Positions 3,140 through 14,002 of a DNA stretch of 64,000 nt are shown piece after piece. The DNA comes from Pseudomonas leptonychotis. GTDB taxonomy: Bacteria; Pseudomonadota; Gammaproteobacteria; Pseudomonadales; Pseudomonadaceae. Location of the stretch: NCBI RefSeq assembly GCF_004920405.1, contig NZ_RFLV01000001.1, positions 2,258,233 to 2,322,232 of the forward strand, given 5' to 3'. The notes beneath the pieces are model-generated. The model searched no databases. It saw only the letters and a list, made by a program, of their open reading frames with translations, and was not told where the DNA came from. Position 1 is the first letter of the stretch, and every line of letters begins with the position of its first letter. The position numbers and the translations under genes are program-made.

Positions 3140-3353
3140 ACGTCTGCTGCGGTGTTAACACTCACGGGCTCCCCCTAACGCATCGATAAGCCAGCAACGC
3201 GTGTCGCCGTAATGCTCGGCATTGCTAAATGTGCACGCCATTGAAGTGCATCACCGCGATCTACAACTACCCGAACCCCTGATCGTGCAGGGCTGGAGAT
3301 CACCCTCTGGCTGCCGCGAACTCAGGGCTGGCGTGTAGCCAAAATAAGGCAGA

Positions 3354-3378
3354 AAAAAGCCGCGCAGTGCGCGGCTTT
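3354..3378 (-). terminator. Duplicated tRNA terminator hairpin
   Basis: Minus-strand hairpin with 7-bp GC stem GCCGCGC / GCGCGGC, 3-nt loop and flanking A/T runs. It is an exact copy of the terminator at 13896-13920. Before the insertion this copy was probably the original chromosomal terminator of the tRNA. Confidence 0.75.
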
Positions 3379-3383
3379 GGAGT

Positions 3384-3429
3384 TGGTGGGCCCACACGGA
3401 CTCGAACCGTGGACCAAAGGATTATGAGT
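3384..3429 (-). pseudogene. Truncated 3' fragment of tRNA (CAU)
   Basis: 46 of 77 nt of the tRNA at 13926-14002: encoded CCA end, acceptor 3' strand, T arm, variable loop and anticodon loop. The D arm and 5' acceptor strand are absent. It cannot fold into a tRNA and marks the distal end of the integrated element. Confidence 0.88.
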
Positions 3430-3436
3430 TGCCTAG

Positions 3437-3625
3437 AAACGCTGCAAACCCAGTGAAATCGTGCGTAGCTTAGCGCAGGTACAGTTAGCTGAAAGTAGCG
3501 TGGTTACTGGTGTTGAGCGTAATTTGGCGAAATGGGTAGAAGCTGGGCACTGTACCGTCAACGTACCGCTTTCTCGTACTGTGAAGCGGCCAAGCATGAG
3601 CCGCTTCCTGAGTTTGGATGAGTAA
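3437..3625 (+). pseudogene. Possible degraded tyrosine-recombinase fragment
   Basis: An open plus-strand stretch just inside the left att repeat reads as about 62 residues ending in 'RPSMSRFLSLDE' then TAA. The string 'RFLSLDE' resembles the junction before the catalytic domain of phage-type integrases (consensus RFLS.(D/E)E). No catalytic R-H-R-Y part follows. The position next to att fits an integrase relic. The minus-strand reading (69 codons) looks less protein-like. This is a weak call based on one short motif. Confidence 0.25.
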
Positions 3626-3658: not shown

Positions 3659-6583
3659 TTAAGAGAGCTCTTCCGCTAGGCGGAATAACGCAATAGAGGG
3701 GCTTCCCTGCTCGAAATAATCAATCACGCTTTTGTACTCATCACTAACTTTGAATTGCCGCATAGTCGGTTTTTTAGGGTCTTTATAGTTTTTTAATACA
3801 CCCTTCTCGAGCAGGTGGGGCAGGAAGTTCACCGCAGATAGTTTCTTTCTTACTTCCTCTTGTTTTCTTGGGTAGAAATTACCTCGCTGGTAGAATAGTT
3901 TAAATACCTTTTCTAGTTCTGTAAGTACGGCCTCTTTATTCTCTGCGGCTTCTTCCTCTTTTTCTGTTAAAAGATGCTGTATCTGCGTGAGGTCGCAGGT
4001 GCTAGAGAAAAGGCTGTTATGTAGTTTTATTGTTACGCCGCTTCTAGGGTTTATGTCTTTAAATTGCGAGTTCTCAAATTTTGTACCCTCGTTCATTTGG
4101 CACTCCCAGAAATATTCATAATTGTCGAAAGTGCAATCTCGCAAAACTCTGTCTTTGAAGTCGAATGTGGGTTTTATAGATGAGTTGCCAAATATGTCTA
4201 TTAGGGAAATGCCTACTAATTCGTTGCTTTTCAAGAATAGTTTTTCAATTAGCTCTGTTCTGGTGTGAGTGCTTGATTGGCTGTTGTCTGATTTTTGGAG
4301 TAGGCAAAGTAGCAAAGAAACAATCGATGATATTAAAGTATTGGGATTTTCATAGCTTGCTGCAGACTCTATTACTTCAATGCAAAACAATACAAGGTCG
4401 TCGTGCATTTCTATTCTTTCGCATACCGACTCAGTGAAGCTGCTGTCATATTTTAAATAGCCAGATATAACTCTGGCTGTTTGCTCGTCAAGTGCTGTTA
4501 TATCTCTCTGCTTGAAAAAATAAACGAGGTGGAGTGCGGCAAAGTAGACATCAAATACATCGTATCTGAAATGAATTCCGTTATCAGAGCACACAAGTAG
4601 GGTGTGGCCTTTAATCTTTTCTATTAGTGCGTTGTCAGGGGCGGTGACGATTTTTTGAAGTTCCTGCTTTATATCGTAAAGATCTACGCCGTTGTCTTTG
4701 CTTATGGCTATTCGAATGAAAAGCTCAATCTGCTGGTCGACTGTTAGTCCTCCGAGTTTTATTATCTCTCGGTCGCACACTTGCGCTATTAAGAAATCAA
4801 CATGATTTTCGGTTGATAAATATCGGCTTGCGAATTGTTTTTTTAAATTGATGTCTTCAGTTCTAGAATTTATTAGGTATCCAATCATGTCTAGAAGAAA
4901 AGGAATATAGAAGAGCTCAGTGGTGCCTTGTTTTGTTCTGGTTTCAATTGCTAGTTTGTCAGCTATAAGCATGGCATTGGTAATGCGCTTCTTATCACCT
5001 TTTAGTTTTTGATTAAAAAAATCTTGTGCTAAGTCGGCGTTGAAGGCTTTGAGTACTATTTCAGGGAGAAGTATTTTTTTGCCGACTTCATTCCAGAAGT
5101 GGTCCCTGCATGTAATTAATACTTTCGTTTTGTGCAGGTCTGAAGAGTATTCTTGGAAAATTGAGGTTATAAAGGCTTGTACATCGAAGCGATTCCCAAG
5201 CTTTGCTATTACCTCATCTATGCCGTCTAGGACAACAGTTAGGCTTCCGTTATCTATAGATAACTTAAGAAGATCCTTGTTGAATCTAGATGAGTCGTTG
5301 CCATCCACGTCCATCTGTGCCCTGTAAAAATCAAATACGTCACTGATTTTTGAATTTCTAGATAGCTCGTTAATTATCTCTTTAGAATCAATAAAAAGAA
5401 GACCTTGGTCATTTTCTTCGGTATATATTTGATCTAGAAATTGTTTGGCGAGTGTGGTTTTCCCTATTCCACCGTGCCCGCTAACAATAAATAAAGGCTC
5501 ATTCTCTGTGTTGTACCATTCTTTAAGCTTTTCAAGTGCAGGGAGATCGCGTTCTTCCTCTAAATCATATAGGCCATTCACATAAATTGGTAAGTTAAAC
5601 TTTTCATATGGCAGCATGCAGTCTTTGTACAAGAAATTACATCCGAATTCGTCTACGAAATAGACAAACTTTGTACCGAATAATCTTGATATATTTTCTT
5701 TTCGCTTTCCAATGTCTTTTAAATTTGGTCTGTCAATCAAGATAATTGATGATTCCGGTTTTGAAATGTAGTTTTTGCTTTTTATCTCACCGACTGTCTT
5801 TCCTTGATTTGAACTGTCGTGTATGTAGATAAATTCTTTCCCGCCATCAAATCCATCTGTTAACTTGTAAACTTCGTAAATGATACTGTCTTTCCAGTTT
5901 TTTACTCGCACTGGATATTTCTCTACCAGGGAAAGGCTAGAGTTTTTGTCCATGAATAGTTGGACTGTTTTCTCAATGCTTCTTTCTGTTTGTTGCTCTT
6001 CTGGTTCGGGTTGAGTGAATCTTGCAAAAAAATCAGATCGTCTAAGTGATTCAAATTCTTCTTTAAGATTCTGGTACTCGGATGGAGTTGCTGTTCTTAC
6101 CTCATCCGTTTTCTGCCCTTTTCGTATTAGTACTCCGCCCTCATCAATGTGCCTTGTTTTTGTTTTTAGCCCGGTTTTTAGTTCGGTTATATATCCCTTC
6201 ACGGGTAGTTCGATTATAAGTAGTGTGCAGCCTTCGTGAACTGTGGTTTCAATGTTTATATCGGTTAAGGAGGGGGTTGTATATTTTTCCAGTCGACGAA
6301 TTAGGTCTTTTTTGAAGGCTGTGAGGTTTTGTAGTTGCTTTATTTTTGAAATTCCAATATTAAAAGGTTTTCTTTCTGTCTCTGAATAGCCAATAACTAG
6401 GTGGCGATTTCTGCCTGTATGGCCTAGGTATCCGTTAGATAGCGAAATGATGTCTTTTATTAACTCTCCCCACAGGTCGGCCATATCTGTGGCGGGGGTA
6501 GTATCATCCCAGTACCATTGTCTTTTGAACTCGAGGGTAGGAGACTCTTGCTCAGTAATTAATTCAATGATGCTCGCTTTCAT
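3659..6583 (-). CDS. AlbA_2/Schlafen-like - NACHT STAND NTPase, candidate antiphage protein
   Basis: 974 residues. Residues 1-165 look like an AlbA_2 (Schlafen-type) domain, with 'TLEFKRQW' and a conserved 'KDIISLSN' helix. Residues 360-690 form a NACHT/STAND ATPase: Walker A 'GHGGIGKTT' (369-377), Walker B 'VVLDGIDE' (450-457), sensor 'VLITCRDHFW' (488-497) and a winged-helix motif 'FRYDVFDVYFAA' (672-683). A helical region follows, then a short pentapeptide-like stretch (about 806-846) and a C-terminal winged-helix-like segment (about 885-974). In this protein class the NTPase oligomerises on sensing an invader and activates an effector. AlbA_2 as effector or nucleic-acid-binding domain is inference. 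The DNA is visibly AT-rich (33% GC in the sampled 4201-4260) against GC-rich neighbours, a sign of separate acquisition. It starts 47 nt after mrr and may share its transcript. Confidence 0.85.
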   Translation of the reverse strand: MKASIIELITEQESPTLEFKRQWYWDDTTPATDMADLWGELIKDIISLSNGYLGHTGRNRHLVIGYSETERKPFNIGISKIKQLQNLTAFKKDLIRRLEKYTTPSLTDINIETTVHEGCTLLIIELPVKGYITELKTGLKTKTRHIDEGGVLIRKGQKTDEVRTATPSEYQNLKEEFESLRRSDFFARFTQPEPEEQQTERSIEKTVQLFMDKNSSLSLVEKYPVRVKNWKDSIIYEVYKLTDGFDGGKEFIYIHDSSNQGKTVGEIKSKNYISKPESSIILIDRPNLKDIGKRKENISRLFGTKFVYFVDEFGCNFLYKDCMLPYEKFNLPIYVNGLYDLEEERDLPALEKLKEWYNTENEPLFIVSGHGGIGKTTLAKQFLDQIYTEENDQGLLFIDSKEIINELSRNSKISDVFDFYRAQMDVDGNDSSRFNKDLLKLSIDNGSLTVVLDGIDEVIAKLGNRFDVQAFITSIFQEYSSDLHKTKVLITCRDHFWNEVGKKILLPEIVLKAFNADLAQDFFNQKLKGDKKRITNAMLIADKLAIETRTKQGTTELFYIPFLLDMIGYLINSRTEDINLKKQFASRYLSTENHVDFLIAQVCDREIIKLGGLTVDQQIELFIRIAISKDNGVDLYDIKQELQKIVTAPDNALIEKIKGHTLLVCSDNGIHFRYDVFDVYFAALHLVYFFKQRDITALDEQTARVISGYLKYDSSFTESVCERIEMHDDLVLFCIEVIESAASYENPNTLISSIVSLLLCLLQKSDNSQSSTHTRTELIEKLFLKSNELVGISLIDIFGNSSIKPTFDFKDRVLRDCTFDNYEYFWECQMNEGTKFENSQFKDINPRSGVTIKLHNSLFSSTCDLTQIQHLLTEKEEEAAENKEAVLTELEKVFKLFYQRGNFYPRKQEEVRKKLSAVNFLPHLLEKGVLKNYKDPKKPTMRQFKVSDEYKSVIDYFEQGSPSIALFRLAEELS

Positions 6584-6630: not shown

Positions 6631-7551
6631 TTATTCTTCGTCGAAGTAGTCGCTATCCAGCTTGGGCAACCTCAGTAGGCGTGAAGTCACACCTACCTCG
6701 TGATCCATCATCAGGTTGACCAGTCGGTTGCCATCCACCAGAACCATGCCTTCCACCGAGCGGGAAAAGTCGACTGCCTGTGAGGTGAAGCCTGAGGTGG
6801 TAATAAACACGCCACGCTTGGCTTTCTGCCCTGCAAGAGCTCCATAGAAGGCCTGCAGCTCTGGCCTGCCAACTGTTCCCTGCCAGCGTTTGGCCTGGAC
6901 GTAGACTTTTTCCAAGCCGAGCTTGTCTAGCGAGATCACCCCGTCGATCCCACCGTCGCCGCTGCCGCCGACGCGCTGCAGATCGTTGCGGCTAGCGCCG
7001 TAGCCAAGGCTGTGCAGCACATCCAGCACGATGACTTCAAAGCGGTTGGGGCTGACTTGCAGGAGGTTATCCAGCAGGTCTGCAGCCGTTGCTTCGCGCA
7101 GTTCACGCAAAGCCTGCTCCAGACGATCATCAGGGCTAACAGTGGCTGAGATGAGCGCCGCTGTAGGCTGCTCTTGCCCATCGAGTGGGACAGCATCTGT
7201 CGGGGTCTTGAGTTTTACATTCATAAAGCCAATGGCGAGCTGTTCGATCTTATTCGCAGTCAGAGGGGCGGGGTGCTGGACGGCATAGGTAATGCCAGCG
7301 TCAGTCAGCTTCCAATACCCACGCTTGGCGCTGCTGGACAGGCCGGCGCGCTTGAGGCGGTCATGGGCCCAGCCTGCACGGTTCTTGTACGTGGCCTGGC
7401 CGCTGGCAATTAGCTCTTGGCGCTGTGCTTCCGACAGGTTCAGCGCATCAGCAGCTGCTTCATGGGCGTCACGTGCTGTCGCGCCTTCGGGCGTGGCGGC
7501 CAGGTAGCGCAGGATCGGCTCAATAAACTGGTCGTAGGTAGGGACGGGCAT
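6631..7551 (-). CDS. mrr: Mrr-type restriction endonuclease
   Basis: Type IV restriction enzyme of the Mrr family, which cleaves modified foreign DNA. I start it at the ATG at 7551 ('MPVPTYDQFIEP', the usual Mrr N-terminus), giving 306 residues; the longer frame runs into the upstream gene. Residues about 1-95 form the Mrr N-terminal winged-helix DNA-binding domain. The C-terminal half carries the PD-(D/E)XK-like catalytic core: 'FEVIVLDVLHSLGYG', 'GGSGDGGIDG' and 'VYVQAKRW', with the D...QxK residues intact. It lies 38 nt after the corrected NERD stop and 47 nt before the NACHT gene, so a three-gene transcript is plausible. GC content is like that of the host, unlike the NACHT gene. Confidence 0.92.
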   Translation of the reverse strand: MPVPTYDQFIEPILRYLAATPEGATARDAHEAAADALNLSEAQRQELIASGQATYKNRAGWAHDRLKRAGLSSSAKRGYWKLTDAGITYAVQHPAPLTANKIEQLAIGFMNVKLKTPTDAVPLDGQEQPTAALISATVSPDDRLEQALRELREATAADLLDNLLQVSPNRFEVIVLDVLHSLGYGASRNDLQRVGGSGDGGIDGVISLDKLGLEKVYVQAKRWQGTVGRPELQAFYGALAGQKAKRGVFITTSGFTSQAVDFSRSVEGMVLVDGNRLVNLMMDHEVGVTSRLLRLPKLDSDYFDEE

Positions 7552-7576: not shown

Positions 7577-8359
7577 TTAGGGCCGCGTGCTAAAGGCTCT
7601 GCATGGTTTTGCATTTGGGGAAGGTTGAGCAGCCCCAGAATTGTTGGCCGACATTGGCCCTGTTTTACGGATGCGAATAACCAGGGCGCTGCCGCATTTC
7701 GGGCATTGCCGCTCGGCTGCCGGATCGCTACGGCGTTTAAGGTTTTGTACATGCTCGCGGTGGGTGGCGAGCGTCGGGGCGCGGCGGCCGGTTTGCAGGG
7801 CGTGCAGCATGGCGTCGACTTCAGCCTCGCTAAACACTAGCTGCTGGAATGACTTGATATAGCGGATAAAGCCGATGCCCTGCGTCACGTTGGCCGGCAC
7901 TTCGGTTTTGAAGGTGCTGCCGCCAACGAAGGTAATGACCGAGTGCAGGTGCTCGGGATTAACGCCAAGGGTGGCTTCCAGGGCTTTGAGGTGTTTGTAG
8001 TTCTGGCGTAGCGGGTTCTGGAATTTGAAGGTGCGCTTGTAGAGCTTTTGCGTCCACTGCGCTTGGTTCTCACTGCCGAAGATCCAGCCGCTCATGCTCT
8101 TCGTTTCCAGCACGAAGATGCCGTAGGGCGAGAGGAATACATGGTCGATCTGCGTGGTGCCGTCTGGCGTGTTTAGCGTGACGTTGTGCAGGCGGCGGTA
8201 GGTCTGTTTATCCAGCTGGAAGTGAGCAAACAGCTGCACCAGAAGCTCGCCGATATAGCCTTTGGCCCAAGGCGACTTGAACAGCGTGATCAGCAGCATG
8301 AGTGGAATAAACCAGCTCAACATGCCCCAGACCTGCGCGATGACGGGGGTGAAGTCCAT
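7577..8359 (-). CDS. NERD-domain nuclease-like protein with frameshifted C-terminal zinc finger
   Basis: An N-terminal membrane segment (about residues 5-28) precedes a NERD (nuclease-related) domain at about 33-150, with 'DGTTQIDHVFLSPYGIFVLE' followed by TKS. A C4 zinc finger of the topoisomerase C-terminal type starts with 'CPKCGSALVIRIRKTG'. After that the open frame loses homology. Reading +1 from the GGGCC run at 7656-7660 gives 'NVGQQFWGCSTFPKCK' and a stop at 7590-7592, the canonical second half of the finger. One missing G would explain it, as a true mutation or a homopolymer sequencing error. A Shine-Dalgarno GGAAGG lies before the ATG. The intact gene would be 7590-8359. NERD proteins are often found with restriction and defence genes; the function here is unproven. 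Confidence 0.82.
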   Translation of the reverse strand: MDFTPVIAQVWGMLSWFIPLMLLITLFKSPWAKGYIGELLVQLFAHFQLDKQTYRRLHNVTLNTPDGTTQIDHVFLSPYGIFVLETKSMSGWIFGSENQAQWTQKLYKRTFKFQNPLRQNYKHLKALEATLGVNPEHLHSVITFVGGSTFKTEVPANVTQGIGFIRYIKSFQQLVFSEAEVDAMLHALQTGRRAPTLATHREHVQNLKRRSDPAAERQCPKCGSALVIRIRKTGPMSANNSGAAQPSPNAKPCRAFSTRP

Positions 8360-10211: not shown

Positions 10212-10865
10212 TCAGTAAGTATTCAATTGCTCTTTAGTGGCCGGTCTTACAGTCAGCTCGTCGGCGGGCTGCAGGCGGAGCCAGCCCAGTACTCGTGACT
10301 GCTCGAGATACCAGTGGCCTTCTCGTTGGGTAAGCCCCAGGTCTTCTCTGGAGCTGCCAAAGGGGCCAGGGTTTTGCTGGGCGATTTGCAGGGTTTCGGT
10401 GCCTACGCTGGCGATAATCGCGACGTGACCGAAGCGGTTGAGTAGTGAGGGGGCGAATACCAGCAAGTCTTCTGCTTGCGGTTGCTCGGCGCTGCCGTTG
10501 CGAAACTGCAGCATCGCCCGTTTGGCGTTCAAACTGCCGTCGCTGAGGGTTGGATCGAAGAAGTCTTTGGCGTGCCCGTAGGTGTCCGGCATGCGGTGGC
10601 CATGGCGTTCGAAGTAGTAGCGTTTGACGAACTCCACGCACTGATAGCGCAGGCCTAGGTTGTAACCGTCCTGGCTCAGGTTACGGCCCTGCACCGTATT
10701 GACCCCGCCGTTGTAGTAAATCGCCACGCCATTCAGCTCATCAAGTTGTTCGCCCACGGCATGCTGGCTGTTGGGGTTGATACGGGTAACGGCTGCATAA
10801 GTCGCCAGAGCGATCAAAGGCAGCAGCACACAGCTAGCGAGGAGGGTGATTCGACGTTTGTTCAT
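10212..10865 (-). CDS. Exported CHAP-domain amidase/peptidase
   Basis: 217 residues from the ATG at 10865, chosen because it begins with a clear signal sequence or membrane anchor ('MNKRRITLLA' and a hydrophobic run to about residue 25). The longer open frame overlaps the preceding gene. The CHAP domain has catalytic Cys76 in 'GLRYQCVEFVKRYYF' and His147 in 'NRFGHVAII'. CHAP enzymes hydrolyse peptidoglycan peptides or glutathionylspermidine-type amides; this one is closest in look to the glutathionylspermidine amidase branch. It is the last gene of the PAAR cassette. Whether it is an effector, an envelope-remodelling aid or simply a neighbour cannot be decided. Confidence 0.8.
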   Translation of the reverse strand: MNKRRITLLASCVLLPLIALATYAAVTRINPNSQHAVGEQLDELNGVAIYYNGGVNTVQGRNLSQDGYNLGLRYQCVEFVKRYYFERHGHRMPDTYGHAKDFFDPTLSDGSLNAKRAMLQFRNGSAEQPQAEDLLVFAPSLLNRFGHVAIIASVGTETLQIAQQNPGPFGSSREDLGLTQREGHWYLEQSRVLGWLRLQPADELTVRPATKEQLNTY

Positions 10866-10938
10866 CGTGAGGGCTTTATAAGTTGGAGGGCGCGGCTGTG
10901 GTTTTTTGGCTGGATCGTTAGCGCGGCGCAGAGCGGCA

Positions 10939-11370
10939 TTAATCCGTGTTTGGGTCTGCTGCCGTTGAGTGCCCGTTATCGCTGGCATCGAGCCTGTAAA
11001 GCCTTTCTATATCTTGCCCCGCGCATTGGGTGCCATAGGTACGGCCATAGACCAGTACGTCGTAGCGTCCGGCCTTGGTGGGAATACCCTGAATCACGCC
11101 ATGCTTTTCTCTTTCGATATGGGTTAACTCCAAGCCATTGGGCAGTGGCGTGTCTGGAGCTACCAGCAACTGGCTTATGGGGGTACTGGCGTTGATCACA
11201 TCTATACGTATGCGATAGGGGACTCCCACGACTGCAGCAGGAAGCTCATTGGGCAGAAGTTCCGGCGCAGGCCTTATGGCGCAGCCGACCACGACATTAC
11301 CGAACATGAGGACTTCACAGCCTGTTAGCTGAATGGCCATACAGAGAGTGAGCAGCGTATTTCGCAGCAT
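10939..11370 (-). CDS. Putative lipoprotein with Ig-like fold
   Basis: 143 residues. A lipobox 'LTGC' at residues 15-18 after a short hydrophobic stretch marks it as a lipoprotein. The mature part has a region around 'PLPNGLELTHIEREKHGVIQ' followed by a turn that resembles cadherin-like 'putative Ig' modules. There is no enzyme motif. It lies 29 nt after the candidate immunity gene and 73 nt before the CHAP gene. A lipid-anchored periplasmic protein in an effector cassette could be an immunity protein, for instance against the CHAP enzyme; this is inference. Confidence 0.6.
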   Translation of the reverse strand: MLRNTLLTLCMAIQLTGCEVLMFGNVVVGCAIRPAPELLPNELPAAVVGVPYRIRIDVINASTPISQLLVAPDTPLPNGLELTHIEREKHGVIQGIPTKAGRYDVLVYGRTYGTQCAGQDIERLYRLDASDNGHSTAADPNTD

Positions 11371-11399
11371 GGTTGCGTTGTTCTTTACGGAGGAGGTGG

Positions 11400-11996
11400 T
11401 TAGCGCGATTTGCGTTCGAGTTCTGCTATTTCGGCAAAGGCTTTTCGATGCTCGGCTTGCGAGGCGTAGTCGCCGCTGATTTCCTTGGCATCTTTTCCGG
11501 TTAGGTCATTGCCAGTCAGCGCATCGCGCGCGAACAGGATGGCAAACTTCCGACCGTCCAATTCCAAGTAGAGGTAGTAGTAGTCTTCGGGCTTGTTGGG
11601 CTCGGCGAAGGCGCTGTAGGTATAGCGGATGCGATAGCTGAGATCGGGCGGGTTCAGTATCAGTGCCTGGGTATCTGTGTCTTCAAGGTAGCTGCTGTCG
11701 AAGGCTTCGGCCGCGGCATAGGGAAGCTCGGCCAATTGCTCGGGTTTAAACTGCCTGAGCTGGCTGCGTAGCATGGTGACATTGCTGGCTCCGCCGTCGG
11801 CCTCAATGTTGCGTGGTTTGTACATGCCACTAACAAACCACTGGCTGGCATCGAACATCTCTTCGACTTCGAAACCGCCGTAATACATCATGATTTTTTT
11901 AGGCATTTGGCTTTCCTTGGCATTCAGATAAAGCCCGGTCGCCAAGCTGGCGACCAGGGCAATGCTACATAGCAATAGCTTGTTCAAGCGCCTCAT
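11400..11996 (-). CDS. Hypothetical membrane-anchored protein, candidate immunity protein
   Basis: 198 residues. One N-terminal hydrophobic segment (about residues 6-25) can be a signal anchor. The rest is soluble, rich in Tyr and acidic residues. I do not recognise a family. Its ATG overlaps the stop of the putative effector by 4 nt (ATGA), so the two are translationally coupled, the usual arrangement for a toxin with its immunity protein. Role by position only. Confidence 0.6.
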   Translation of the reverse strand: MRRLNKLLLCSIALVASLATGLYLNAKESQMPKKIMMYYGGFEVEEMFDASQWFVSGMYKPRNIEADGGASNVTMLRSQLRQFKPEQLAELPYAAAEAFDSSYLEDTDTQALILNPPDLSYRIRYTYSAFAEPNKPEDYYYLYLELDGRKFAILFARDALTGNDLTGKDAKEISGDYASQAEHRKAFAEIAELERKSR

Positions 11997-13024
11997 AGTG
12001 GCTTGTATTCCCGCAGGGTGGCCGGCACCCCAGTGGGCGAGTCGCCTGCACGCACAGGGCGAACCGCCCCCTCAGCGTCCAGTGGGTAACCTATGGTTCG
12101 ATCATTTCCATCGCGACTATTGGCATGGCGTACTAGGGCCTCATCCTGCGCGCTGGCAGTTCTGATCGGTGTCTGCGGCGCGGTTTCGTTAGGTAGTTGG
12201 GCGTTTGCGTCTTTACTGGTCTGTCGGTGCGCGGCTAGACGCCTCTGATAGTCGCTGAGTCGGCGTCTGTATGCCTTCATTGCTTGTGCGTCGGCTTTGG
12301 TTTTCTCCTGGGCATTGGCTAATCCTGCACGATCACTAGCATTGCCATAGGTCTGGTCATAATTGCTGCGCCGTGGGAATGCCCAAACAGAGGTCTGAGC
12401 GGTGTTGGCGATCAACTGCGCCAGGCTTTTCTCGTACAGCGGGTCTTCGTCCTCGCTGACGTGTACGTCGGCATGAATACCAAGGCCGGTACGGCAGGCG
12501 TAGGAGTGAATCTTGGCGCTTAGGTCGAACGCTTCAGGCTTGAGCATCTGAGCTTGAGCATCGCGCATGCGGTAGCTGTCGGCCTTATCCAGCTCATAAC
12601 CAAACTCGATGGTGCCAACCAGGCCGTGGGAGAAAAAGTCGAGCTGCTTGATCTCGCGCTTCTTGCTGATGCGCAGGTTGATAAAGTCGAGTAGTTGGGC
12701 GATGGAGTCCAGTTCTCGGTACTTAGCGCCATAGCGCGTTTCAACCACGTCCTTTACGGCATCGAGCAGGGGGCGTTCGTAGTCTTCTGTGAAAATCAGA
12801 AAAATTCGTTGGGTTGCATCGTTAGCACTTGCGGGCGGATAGAGGCGAGTTTGCCGGATGCCCTGATTGATAAAGCGCATCTTGTTGCCTTTCTGCCCCC
12901 GAAGTTTTTCCATCAGGGTCATATGCGAGGCACCGACCACAGTAATGAAGTCGCGCTGTAGAGAAACAGGGATCTGTTGAATCGCGTGCTGGGAGCTGGT
13001 CTTGCCCTGGTGAGGTGCTGTCAT
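11993..13024 (-). CDS. Putative T6SS effector with SHG...C dyad (clan-CD-like)
   Basis: 343 residues, no signal peptide. Around residues 73-180 lies an alpha/beta region with two hydrophobic strands ending in catalytic-looking residues: 'LDFFSHG' (His133) and 'IHSYACRTG' (Cys177). A strand-His-Gly and strand-Cys pair is the hallmark of caspase-like clan CD peptidases and of DUF4347-type proteins. Residues 235-290 are a charged Ala/Gln/Lys-rich, probably coiled, stretch, and the tail is proline/glycine-rich. It follows the PAAR gene by 11 nt and overlaps the next gene by 4 nt. An effector loaded on the PAAR tip is the best inference; protease activity is a hypothesis from the motif. Confidence 0.65.
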   Translation of the reverse strand: MTAPHQGKTSSQHAIQQIPVSLQRDFITVVGASHMTLMEKLRGQKGNKMRFINQGIRQTRLYPPASANDATQRIFLIFTEDYERPLLDAVKDVVETRYGAKYRELDSIAQLLDFINLRISKKREIKQLDFFSHGLVGTIEFGYELDKADSYRMRDAQAQMLKPEAFDLSAKIHSYACRTGLGIHADVHVSEDEDPLYEKSLAQLIANTAQTSVWAFPRRSNYDQTYGNASDRAGLANAQEKTKADAQAMKAYRRRLSDYQRRLAAHRQTSKDANAQLPNETAPQTPIRTASAQDEALVRHANSRDGNDRTIGYPLDAEGAVRPVRAGDSPTGVPATLREYKPL

Positions 13025-13035
13025 TGCATCTGTCC

Positions 13036-13563
13036 TTAGAAGCTAATGCCTTTTTGCTTGAGGTGGTTAGCGGCATCCCGACCCCAGCGAACGACCACAG
13101 ATTGTGGGTCTTTGGTAAATACCCGCTCGGTATTGCCGTAGCCATTGGTGTAACCCACAAAGCGCTGGCCATCGTCGCACTCCACGCAGTAGAGCGCGTC
13201 CTCGACTGGCTGGCCGCTATTGCTGTCTATCAACTGGTACTGCTCGCTGTGCCTGGGCAGGATCTCTGGTGCGCTGAACGGCGCGCTGCCCGATTGAGTG
13301 CCGACCAGTACGTCGCCTGAGCCAGTGATGATGACCCCGCCATGGGCGGTGGCACTGCCCAGAAAGGCAATGGGCTTGCCATTGACCAAGATGCTGCCGA
13401 TGCCTTCGGTGACCGCATCGCCACAGGCCGTACTGTCACCGACCCGCAGGGTGGGAAGGTTGTTGATCAGTACATCCGGCGAACCATTGGTGGTCGGGTT
13501 GGTGCCATGCCCAGGAATGGGGCACGCATTTAAATCGCTAAGGCGGGAGGCGGGTTTTGCCAT
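13036..13563 (-). CDS. PAAR-domain T6SS spike tip protein with C-terminal extension
   Basis: 175 residues. Residues 1-95 are a PAAR domain: repeated short beta strands with conserved 'CPIPGHG', 'VLINNLPTLRVGD', 'SILVNGKPIAFLGS' and 'AHGGVIITGS', including the His and Cys that bind the tip metal. PAAR proteins sharpen the VgrG spike of type VI secretion and carry effectors. The C-terminal 75 residues form a small beta-rich domain common in PAAR proteins that recruit a separate effector. No vgrG or T6SS structural gene is in the window, so this is an orphan cassette served by a machine elsewhere. It heads the five-gene minus-strand cassette. Confidence 0.92.
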   Translation of the reverse strand: MAKPASRLSDLNACPIPGHGTNPTTNGSPDVLINNLPTLRVGDSTACGDAVTEGIGSILVNGKPIAFLGSATAHGGVIITGSGDVLVGTQSGSAPFSAPEILPRHSEQYQLIDSNSGQPVEDALYCVECDDGQRFVGYTNGYGNTERVFTKDPQSVVVRWGRDAANHLKQKGISF

Positions 13564-13895
13564 GGCAGTCGTCCTTGTGCCGAATCATCAAGCATTCTGA
13601 GCTCCATGGGATTTTTCCGTTGTGGCTAAGTTCACCTTTCGCGGCTTAAACATTCTGCGTGCGGCAAGCGCGGCCTATCGACAGGCCTGCCACTCGTTCA
13701 GCGGAGGGAGGTGTTTCGGCGCGCATGGGCCACAGGTCAGCAATATGCGCACGCAATAGTTGCCCGGAAACTGCATTCGCCAATGACCGACCGCTACTTT
13801 AGTTGGACGCATCTTTCCCTGCTCCCAAACGGCACCGTACTGGATTTTCGCTTTCGAACTGTAGGGCTGGTCTAGCTGCTTTTCCTGCAGACATG
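13564..13895. other. Noncoding or unassigned DNA between PAAR gene and tRNA
   Basis: 332 bp. It should contain the PAAR promoter, though I see no strong -35/-10. A minus-strand frame from an ATG at 13812 to 13675 (45 codons, weak AGGG before it) has several Cys but no recognisable homology, so I do not call it a gene. Confidence 0.4.
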
Positions 13896-13920
13896 AAAAA
13901 GCCGCGCAGTGCGCGGCTTT
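13896..13920 (-). terminator. Rho-independent terminator of the tRNA
   Basis: GCCGCGC / GCGCGGC stem with 3-nt loop and a T-run on the minus strand, 5 bp after the encoded CCA end. It is included in the duplicated att sequence. Confidence 0.85.
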
Positions 13921-13971
13921 GGAGTTGGTGGGCCCACACGGACTCGAACCGTGGACCAAAGGATTATGAGT
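13896..13971. repeat. Right attachment-site repeat (att, 76 bp)
   Basis: Identical to 3354-3429 over 76 bp. Here the repeat merges into the intact tRNA, so tRNA function was restored by the incoming element. Identity ends inside the anticodon loop, which places the crossover within or beside the anticodon arm. Confidence 0.9.
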
Positions 13972-14002
13972 CCTCTGCTCTAACCAACTGAGCTATGGGC
14001 CC
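13926..14002 (-). tRNA. tRNA with CAU anticodon (Met, or Ile2 read as AUA)
   Basis: 77 nt with encoded CCA. Acceptor GGGCCCA/TGGGCCC, D arm GCTC...GAGC, anticodon loop CTCATAA (CAU), variable loop TGGTC and T arm with GGTTCGAGTCC are all complete. Annotation pipelines would say tRNA-Met. However, the C4-G69, C5-G68, C6-G67 pairs and the TGGTC variable loop resemble tRNA-Ile2, whose CAU is modified by TilS to lysidine to read AUA. It lies 15 nt downstream of rmcA on the same strand, as the tRNA does in PAO1, and is the integration target of the island. Confidence 0.95.

Follow-up and report, generated by a model that had tools for sequence, protein, structure and literature searches.

The 64,000-nucleotide stretch of the Pseudomonas leptonychotis genome analysed here (the window) carries a gene whose product joins a predicted AlbA_2/Schlafen-type domain, a restriction-endonuclease-like (REase-like) domain and a NACHT ATPase. 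We assign this architecture, and its logic of an exchangeable N-terminal effector on a constant chassis, with high confidence, and consider an antiphage role likely. The explanation which we favour, with moderate confidence in it as a whole, is that of a STAND-type protein with the NACHT ATPase as switch and a predicted Schlafen/AlbA_2 ribonuclease (RNase) as likely N-terminal effector. Recognition of a phage component would fall to the C-terminal part; oligomerisation would then likely release the RNase, which would cut tRNA and thereby stop translation and phage growth. If this is correct, the protein offers a bacterial model for the gating of an AlbA_2 tRNase by a STAND NTPase, so far studied in SAMD9/9L, and its relatives form a natural set of one chassis with five effectors in which sensing and killing could be studied separately. 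The gene and the parts of its product are as follows.

3659..6583, minus strand: intact AlbA_2 - REase-like - NACHT gene, 974 amino acids (list of open reading frames, Pfam, homologue search)
6038..6583, minus strand: predicted AlbA_2/Schlafen-type domain, residues 1-182, likely effector (model, fold matches, conservation, exchange)
5618..5986, minus strand: REase-like fold without ExK motif, residues 200-322 (weak fold matches; kept with four effector types)
4994..5572, minus strand: NACHT NTPase domain, residues 338-530 (Pfam, fold matches)
5453..5479, minus strand: Walker A, residues 369-377 (sequence; K375 in 89 of 89)
5213..5236, minus strand: Walker B, residues 450-457 (sequence; D453, D456 and E457 in 89 of 89)
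4229..4993, minus strand: helical/winged-helix region, residues 531-785, with FRYDVF at 672-677 (model; NLRP3/NOD2 matches to residue 768)
4049..4222, minus strand: short spaced strands, pentapeptide-like by eye, residues 788-845 (secondary structure of the model only)
3704..3862, minus strand: winged-helix-like C-terminus, residues 908-960 (secondary structure of the model)

The gene and its family

An initial annotation, made from the sequence alone, had placed the open reading frame (ORF) at 3659-6583 without stating its strand; it stands, and runs on the minus strand (6583..3659) from an ATG start with zero internal stops, as a single copy in the 4.39-Mb genome. Of 7,990 candidates scored in a protein search, 220 were homologues at E <= 0.001 (120 of the 220 listed), and those aligned at full length keep one colinear layout at identities as low as about 38%; the conservation counts given here refer to an alignment of 89 members (A2). 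The sharp contrast in composition with the neighbours was also borne out, with a GC content of 38.7% against 58.4% for the remaining window and a GC at third codon positions of 0.39 against 0.62-0.74 in six neighbours. Low GC is a feature of the entire family: in all 19 cases measured, namely the window, 12 loci of relatives and six viral contigs (L063 and L066 being near-duplicates; the truncated L008, L017, L018 and L020 and the distant L002-L005 were left out), the gene is lower in GC than the DNA around it. A particular foreign donor was therefore rejected as a reading of the GC content. A promoter scan was uninformative (9 sites against 6.7 expected).

The NACHT switch

The NACHT module proposed in the initial annotation is supported by both Pfam (NACHT, E 5.2e-9, above the cut-off; NPHP3_N, E 2e-9) and fold matches, and its motifs lie where they had been assigned: GHGGIGKTT at 369-377, VVLDGIDE at 450-457, the sensor VLITCRDHFW at 488-497 and FRYDVF from 672. 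The traits of NACHT/STAND proteins, a Walker A and a Walker B with acidic DGxDE, are thus present, and residues G374, K375, D453, D456, E457 and R493 are identical in all 89 aligned members. A full-length model built from the 89 sequences (pLDDT 84.2, pTM 0.56) contains NTPase, helical and winged-helix domains of NLR type. Foldseek matched it to NOD2 (1e-11), NLRP3, Avs3 and Avs4, and VIA-align to NLRP3/NOD2 over residues 322-768, with ORC/Cdc6-type AAA+ proteins tying with these two over the NTPase alone. Residues 788-842 of the model form short spaced strands, followed by a long helix and a winged-helix-like end; the pentapeptide-like stretch (about 788-842) and the helix-helix-strand-strand end (908-946) that had been proposed agree with the secondary structure of the model only. 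No SIR2-like, TPR or OB domain was matched by Pfam in the protein, residues 788-974 having had no fold search of their own.

Exchange of the likely N-terminal effector

A chassis of about 770 residues follows not only AlbA_2 N-termini but also nucleoside-phosphorylase (PNP), caspase, TIR or PRTase-CE (PF24390) domains. Examples are L015 (Azonexus), where the chassis module lies after a PNP_UDP_1 domain, L019 (Terrimonas), where a caspase precedes it, and L021 (Chlorobiaceae), where a TIR domain does. In an eight-row alignment of the module the AlbA_2 and PNP rows are 37-46% identical to the window protein and the caspase and TIR rows 26-27%. Searching with this alignment identified 219 proteins, with PF01048 in at least 19 among the 120 listed; a search with the caspase and TIR modules identified 339 proteins, and among the 120 of these that were listed at least 93 carry PF00656, at least two TIR and at least two PF24390, while at least 23 have no labelled N-terminus. 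The caspase-armed branch (P0144-P0262; PF00656 in at least 93 of 120 listed) is large and takes in Vibrio and Flavobacteriia.

A midpoint-rooted FastTree phylogeny of the module was made from 78 hand-chosen proteins (37 AlbA_2, 19 PNP, 17 caspase, two TIR and three other), the label AlbA_2 meaning an N-terminus alignable to that of the window protein; two proteins lacking a Pfam match there also received a label, P0126 as PNP and P0160, from its source name, as caspase. The PNP proteins form one clade (support 1.0) nested in a clade of 56 proteins (0.924) which contains all 37 AlbA_2 proteins. Support was 0.835 for a mixed node of 30 proteins and 0.224 for the next deeper node, and a node of 23 carries no value. 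As the N-terminus is exchanged on one chassis, it probably acts as the effector, with the remainder serving as a sensor-switch that can be reused; the effector role suggested in the initial annotation is thus supported by exchange among five enzyme types, which is stronger than sequence alone.

The AlbA_2 and middle domains

In a model of residues 1-345, the first 182 residues or so match AlbA_2 folds, which upholds the AlbA_2 assignment, the best solved matches being the SAMD9 tRNase domain, DIP2311 and Schlafens. Pfam AlbA_2 (PF04326) gave no match in the window protein at E 0.1. Its cut-off was passed by the scanned relatives P0002, P0009, P0083, L013 and P0110 (P0002, P0009, P0083 and P0110 having been chosen partly because they were already listed with PF04326) and failed by L016/P0129, which is a single protein. 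At the sequence level no link to SAMD9 or SLFN proteins was found in the PDB, where the best row was a histone (E 0.065) and the fifth, CbCash, was not significant (E 0.28).

Among the 89 members E13 is conserved in 88, E18 in 87, K20 in 88, and E40 and K43 in 89, and E68 is kept in 84 with Asp in the others. The tRNase of SAMD9 has acidic residues E184, E196, E218 and D241 and basic residues K198, K214 and R221 (PMC12331169), while SLFN13 has the triad E205, E210 and D248 (PMC5862951). The SAMD9 spacing is repeated in E18-x-K20, with E40 at +22 and K43 at +25, whereas the gap of 5 between E13 and E18 is that of SLFN13, unlike the gap of 12 between E184 and E196 of SAMD9, and E68 falls 5 residues past the position of D241. 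These are the putative catalytic positions, proposed from conservation and residue spacing. SLFN11 and SAMD9 are described as cleaving the acceptor stem and anticodon loop of tRNA (PMC12851939). Kinship of fold with the SAMD9 and Schlafen tRNases, together with the spacing, points to a predicted RNase activity for which RNA, probably tRNA, would on balance be the target.

The intermediate domain first outlined at about 200-345 appears in the model as a real unit of about 200-322, with weak matches to REase-type folds over residues 193-321. As it is retained whichever effector is attached, it is probably an inactive, regulatory part of the chassis. The Pfam label NA-iREase was rejected for residues 200-322, having no match there at E 0.1; it matches the neighbouring Mrr.

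Comparison with known systems

NACHT defence proteins and bacterial Schlafens have each already been reported. In the literature on Schlafens we recognised no AlbA_2-NACHT protein among titles and abstract openings, a survey that took in few subscription papers or preprints, so that absence in print is not claimed. A 2025 bioRxiv preprint (10.1101/2025.07.24.666596), going by its title, reportedly concerns bacterial Schlafen-domain proteins in phage defence and may already include this architecture. That the protein is not part of a named system, as had been suggested, is true for PADLOC 2023, where no model matched the whole protein (best 17 bits, P-loop only).

The animal antiviral, STAND-like proteins SAMD9/SAMD9L resemble the window protein in placing an AlbA_2 domain before a P-loop NTPase of STAND type; among the fold matches of the N-terminal domain SAMD9 also comes closest, with conserved E, K, E and K/R similarly spaced. 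The account of the SAMD9 family architecture in PMC5445408 describes AlbA_2 as missing from many bacterial members and the Walker A lysine as replaced by glycine in the SAMD9 P-loop, whereas K375 is present in all 89 aligned members here. The window protein also differs in having a REase-like middle domain instead of a SIR2-like one, and no SAM domain. With the eukaryotic Schlafens (SLFN11, SLFN13 and SLFN14) it shares the AlbA_2-type fold and, as in SLFN13, two conserved Glu 5 residues apart, yet its single AlbA_2 unit (1-182) precedes the REase-like domain where SLFN13 has a pseudo-dimeric, two-lobed N'-domain (PMC5862951), and it has a NACHT switch with no helicase-like part.

Bacterial NACHT proteins are described as tripartite and antiphage (PMC12169576), and bNACHT25 and bNACHT32 share the plan of N-terminal effector, NACHT and C-terminal sensor; these two combine a PD-(D/E)XK DNase effector with an NCH1 C-terminus, in contrast to the AlbA_2 effector and different C-terminus found here. 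Avs5 (Sir2-STAND), of which predicted PaAvs5 is said to resemble human SAMD9 (PMC12931631), likewise follows a STAND antiphage plan, but has a Sir2 effector and a repeat-type sensor, and no such repeats were recognised here. We put forward only tentatively, as somewhat less probable than its opposite, the wider proposal that the protein is a bacterial counterpart of SAMD9, i.e., a phage-triggered, ATP-gated tRNA nuclease on a widespread STAND chassis re-armed by bacteria and their phages with at least five effectors while the sensing part stays constant. Were it true, a known animal antiviral device, STAND plus AlbA_2 tRNase, would also serve the defence islands of bacteria and their phages, and a single phage signal could be coupled to different ways of arresting the cell.

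Distribution and phage contigs

Relatives are encoded on six IMG/VR contigs, in five of which the gene is placed between phage structural or replication genes. In L065 and L068 its neighbours are an origin-nicking replication gene on one side and a portal gene on the other, with a terminase beyond the portal (by PHROGs in L065, by eye in L068); in L064 it is flanked by tail-completion and baseplate genes, with neighbours of the same kind, by eye, in L063 and L066. In L067 a tail protein is found farther away on the contig. From their gene order we take the five contigs L063-L066 and L068 to be P2-like. These copies suggest that phages carry the gene against competing phages; a tblastn search of 50,697 phage records found no relative, which weighs against a wide phage distribution. 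Among plasmids four records matched, with individual coverage of 17-55% of the protein and identities of 24-28%.

Within the genus five of 199 genomes match at E <= 0.001, with a full-length copy in the window's own only; G018 has a relative at 25% identity and the three others match around the P-loop. Across the class there were matches in four of 369 genomes, two of them strong. In L013 (Pseudomonas gregormendelii) the gene is found downstream of PD-Lambda-2 C (9e-155), 380 bp away, C being in turn preceded by B (7e-188), and in L012 a Dsr1-like gene lies 2.4 kb upstream of the relative. At L013:13104-15272 a dGTPase-like ORF follows the NACHT gene beside a second one (both by eye, from their N-termini), perhaps reflecting an insertion that came with a target-gene copy of its own.

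Alternative explanations

An alternative which also assumes an antiphage STAND protein is that AlbA_2 binds nucleic acid, for sensing or targeting, and that protection comes from another step such as a block of replication or transcription. The SAMD9 domain has also been solved with DNA (title of 7ksp), the bacterial AlbA_2 protein DIP2311 matches equally well, and the AlbA_2 domain of the window protein is weak by profile; the enzymes found at the same position in relatives (PNP, caspase, TIR and PRTase-CE) and the retention of the acidic positions expected for an RNase in 84-89 of 89 members make this alternative unlikely in our view. Quite improbable is that the protein is a nucleic-acid-dependent STAND regulator of host or island with no part in defence, for which a winged-helix-like end in the model and the presence of AlbA_2 domains in other kinds of protein (DIP2311, RecG-related) could be cited; exchange with caspase and TIR, the restriction/defence-type neighbours, the locations on phage contigs and the scattered distribution (a full-length copy in one genome out of 199 of the genus, strong matches in 2 of 369 class genomes) all speak against it.

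Two adjacent genes raise the further alternative of a multi-gene Mrr-NERD-NACHT system in which the neighbours are needed.

6631..7551, minus strand: mrr-type restriction gene (Pfam Mrr_N and Mrr_cat; inferred start 7551, with the ORF remaining open as far as 7752)
7577..8359, minus strand: NERD-domain gene, island neighbour (Pfam)

The mrr gene and the NACHT gene share a strand, with 47 bp from the mrr stop to the NACHT start. In the genus member G064, however, mrr-NERD-fic is present at 84-88% nucleotide identity to the window and homology stops at 6633, the mrr stop codon, after which other genes follow and the NACHT gene is absent. Co-occurrence with mrr and NERD, raised in the initial annotation, was not found either: in the 20 loci that surround relatives (L002-L021, several of them cut short) no gene related to Mrr, NERD or Fic came up at E 1e-3. 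On this context such a system is very unlikely, and Mrr and NERD are probably not partners of the NACHT protein. As the G064 cassette ends at the mrr stop, the NACHT gene was gained or lost separately; the separate arrival once proposed from base composition is in this way supported by G064, while its low GC indicates no particular donor. In G064 (L036, L052) two mrr/NERD/fic cassettes flank one att-like repeat, and the second retains only the end of mrr, whose place is taken by two AT-rich genes without a PADLOC match.

The tRNA-Met island

The gene lies in an island flanked by 83-nt direct repeats which are 96% identical and 10,542 bp apart.

3347..3429, no strand assigned: left att-like repeat, a copy of the tRNA-Met 3' part and downstream hairpin
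13889..13971, no strand assigned: right att-like repeat, overlapping tRNA-Met
13926..14002, minus strand: tRNA-Met, the integration site

No integrase or recognisable remnant was found in the island (best tblastn E 0.39). An integrase-like ORF adjoins the same tRNA in G014 (confirmed by Pfam) and in G001 and G042, which share the C-terminal sequence of that of G014, so that the island may have lost its integrase. Long matches to tRNA-Met and the adjacent GGDEF-EAL gene occur in 55 of 59 genus genomes (its own included), and among the matches listed a second copy of the repeat is found on the same contig at about 15.7 kb in G001, 5.6 kb in G015, 21 kb in G042 and 47 kb in G012. The cargo at this site includes a type I restriction enzyme or methylase (G042, G012), a PDC-S39 protein (G015) and an N6-methylase (G001). 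No clean empty site is claimed: in G075, which gave the nearest match to the flanks, the two flanking genes are arranged differently, and the G064 stretches analysed do not include its whole tRNA-Met. A segment of about 228 bp inside the left repeat, at 3355-3582, shares 81% identity with the corresponding end of the island of G001, and the end of the element is therefore itself conserved.

On the tRNA side of the island (10212-13563) there are CHAP-domain, DUF4347-like and (by eye) PAAR-like ORFs, which resemble a secretion or competition cassette separate from the restriction genes. A match to the Rfam Pseudomonas small RNA P10 at 13472-13543 on the minus strand (49.7 bits, cut-off 37) overlaps the 5' part of the PAAR-like ORF at 13036-13563.
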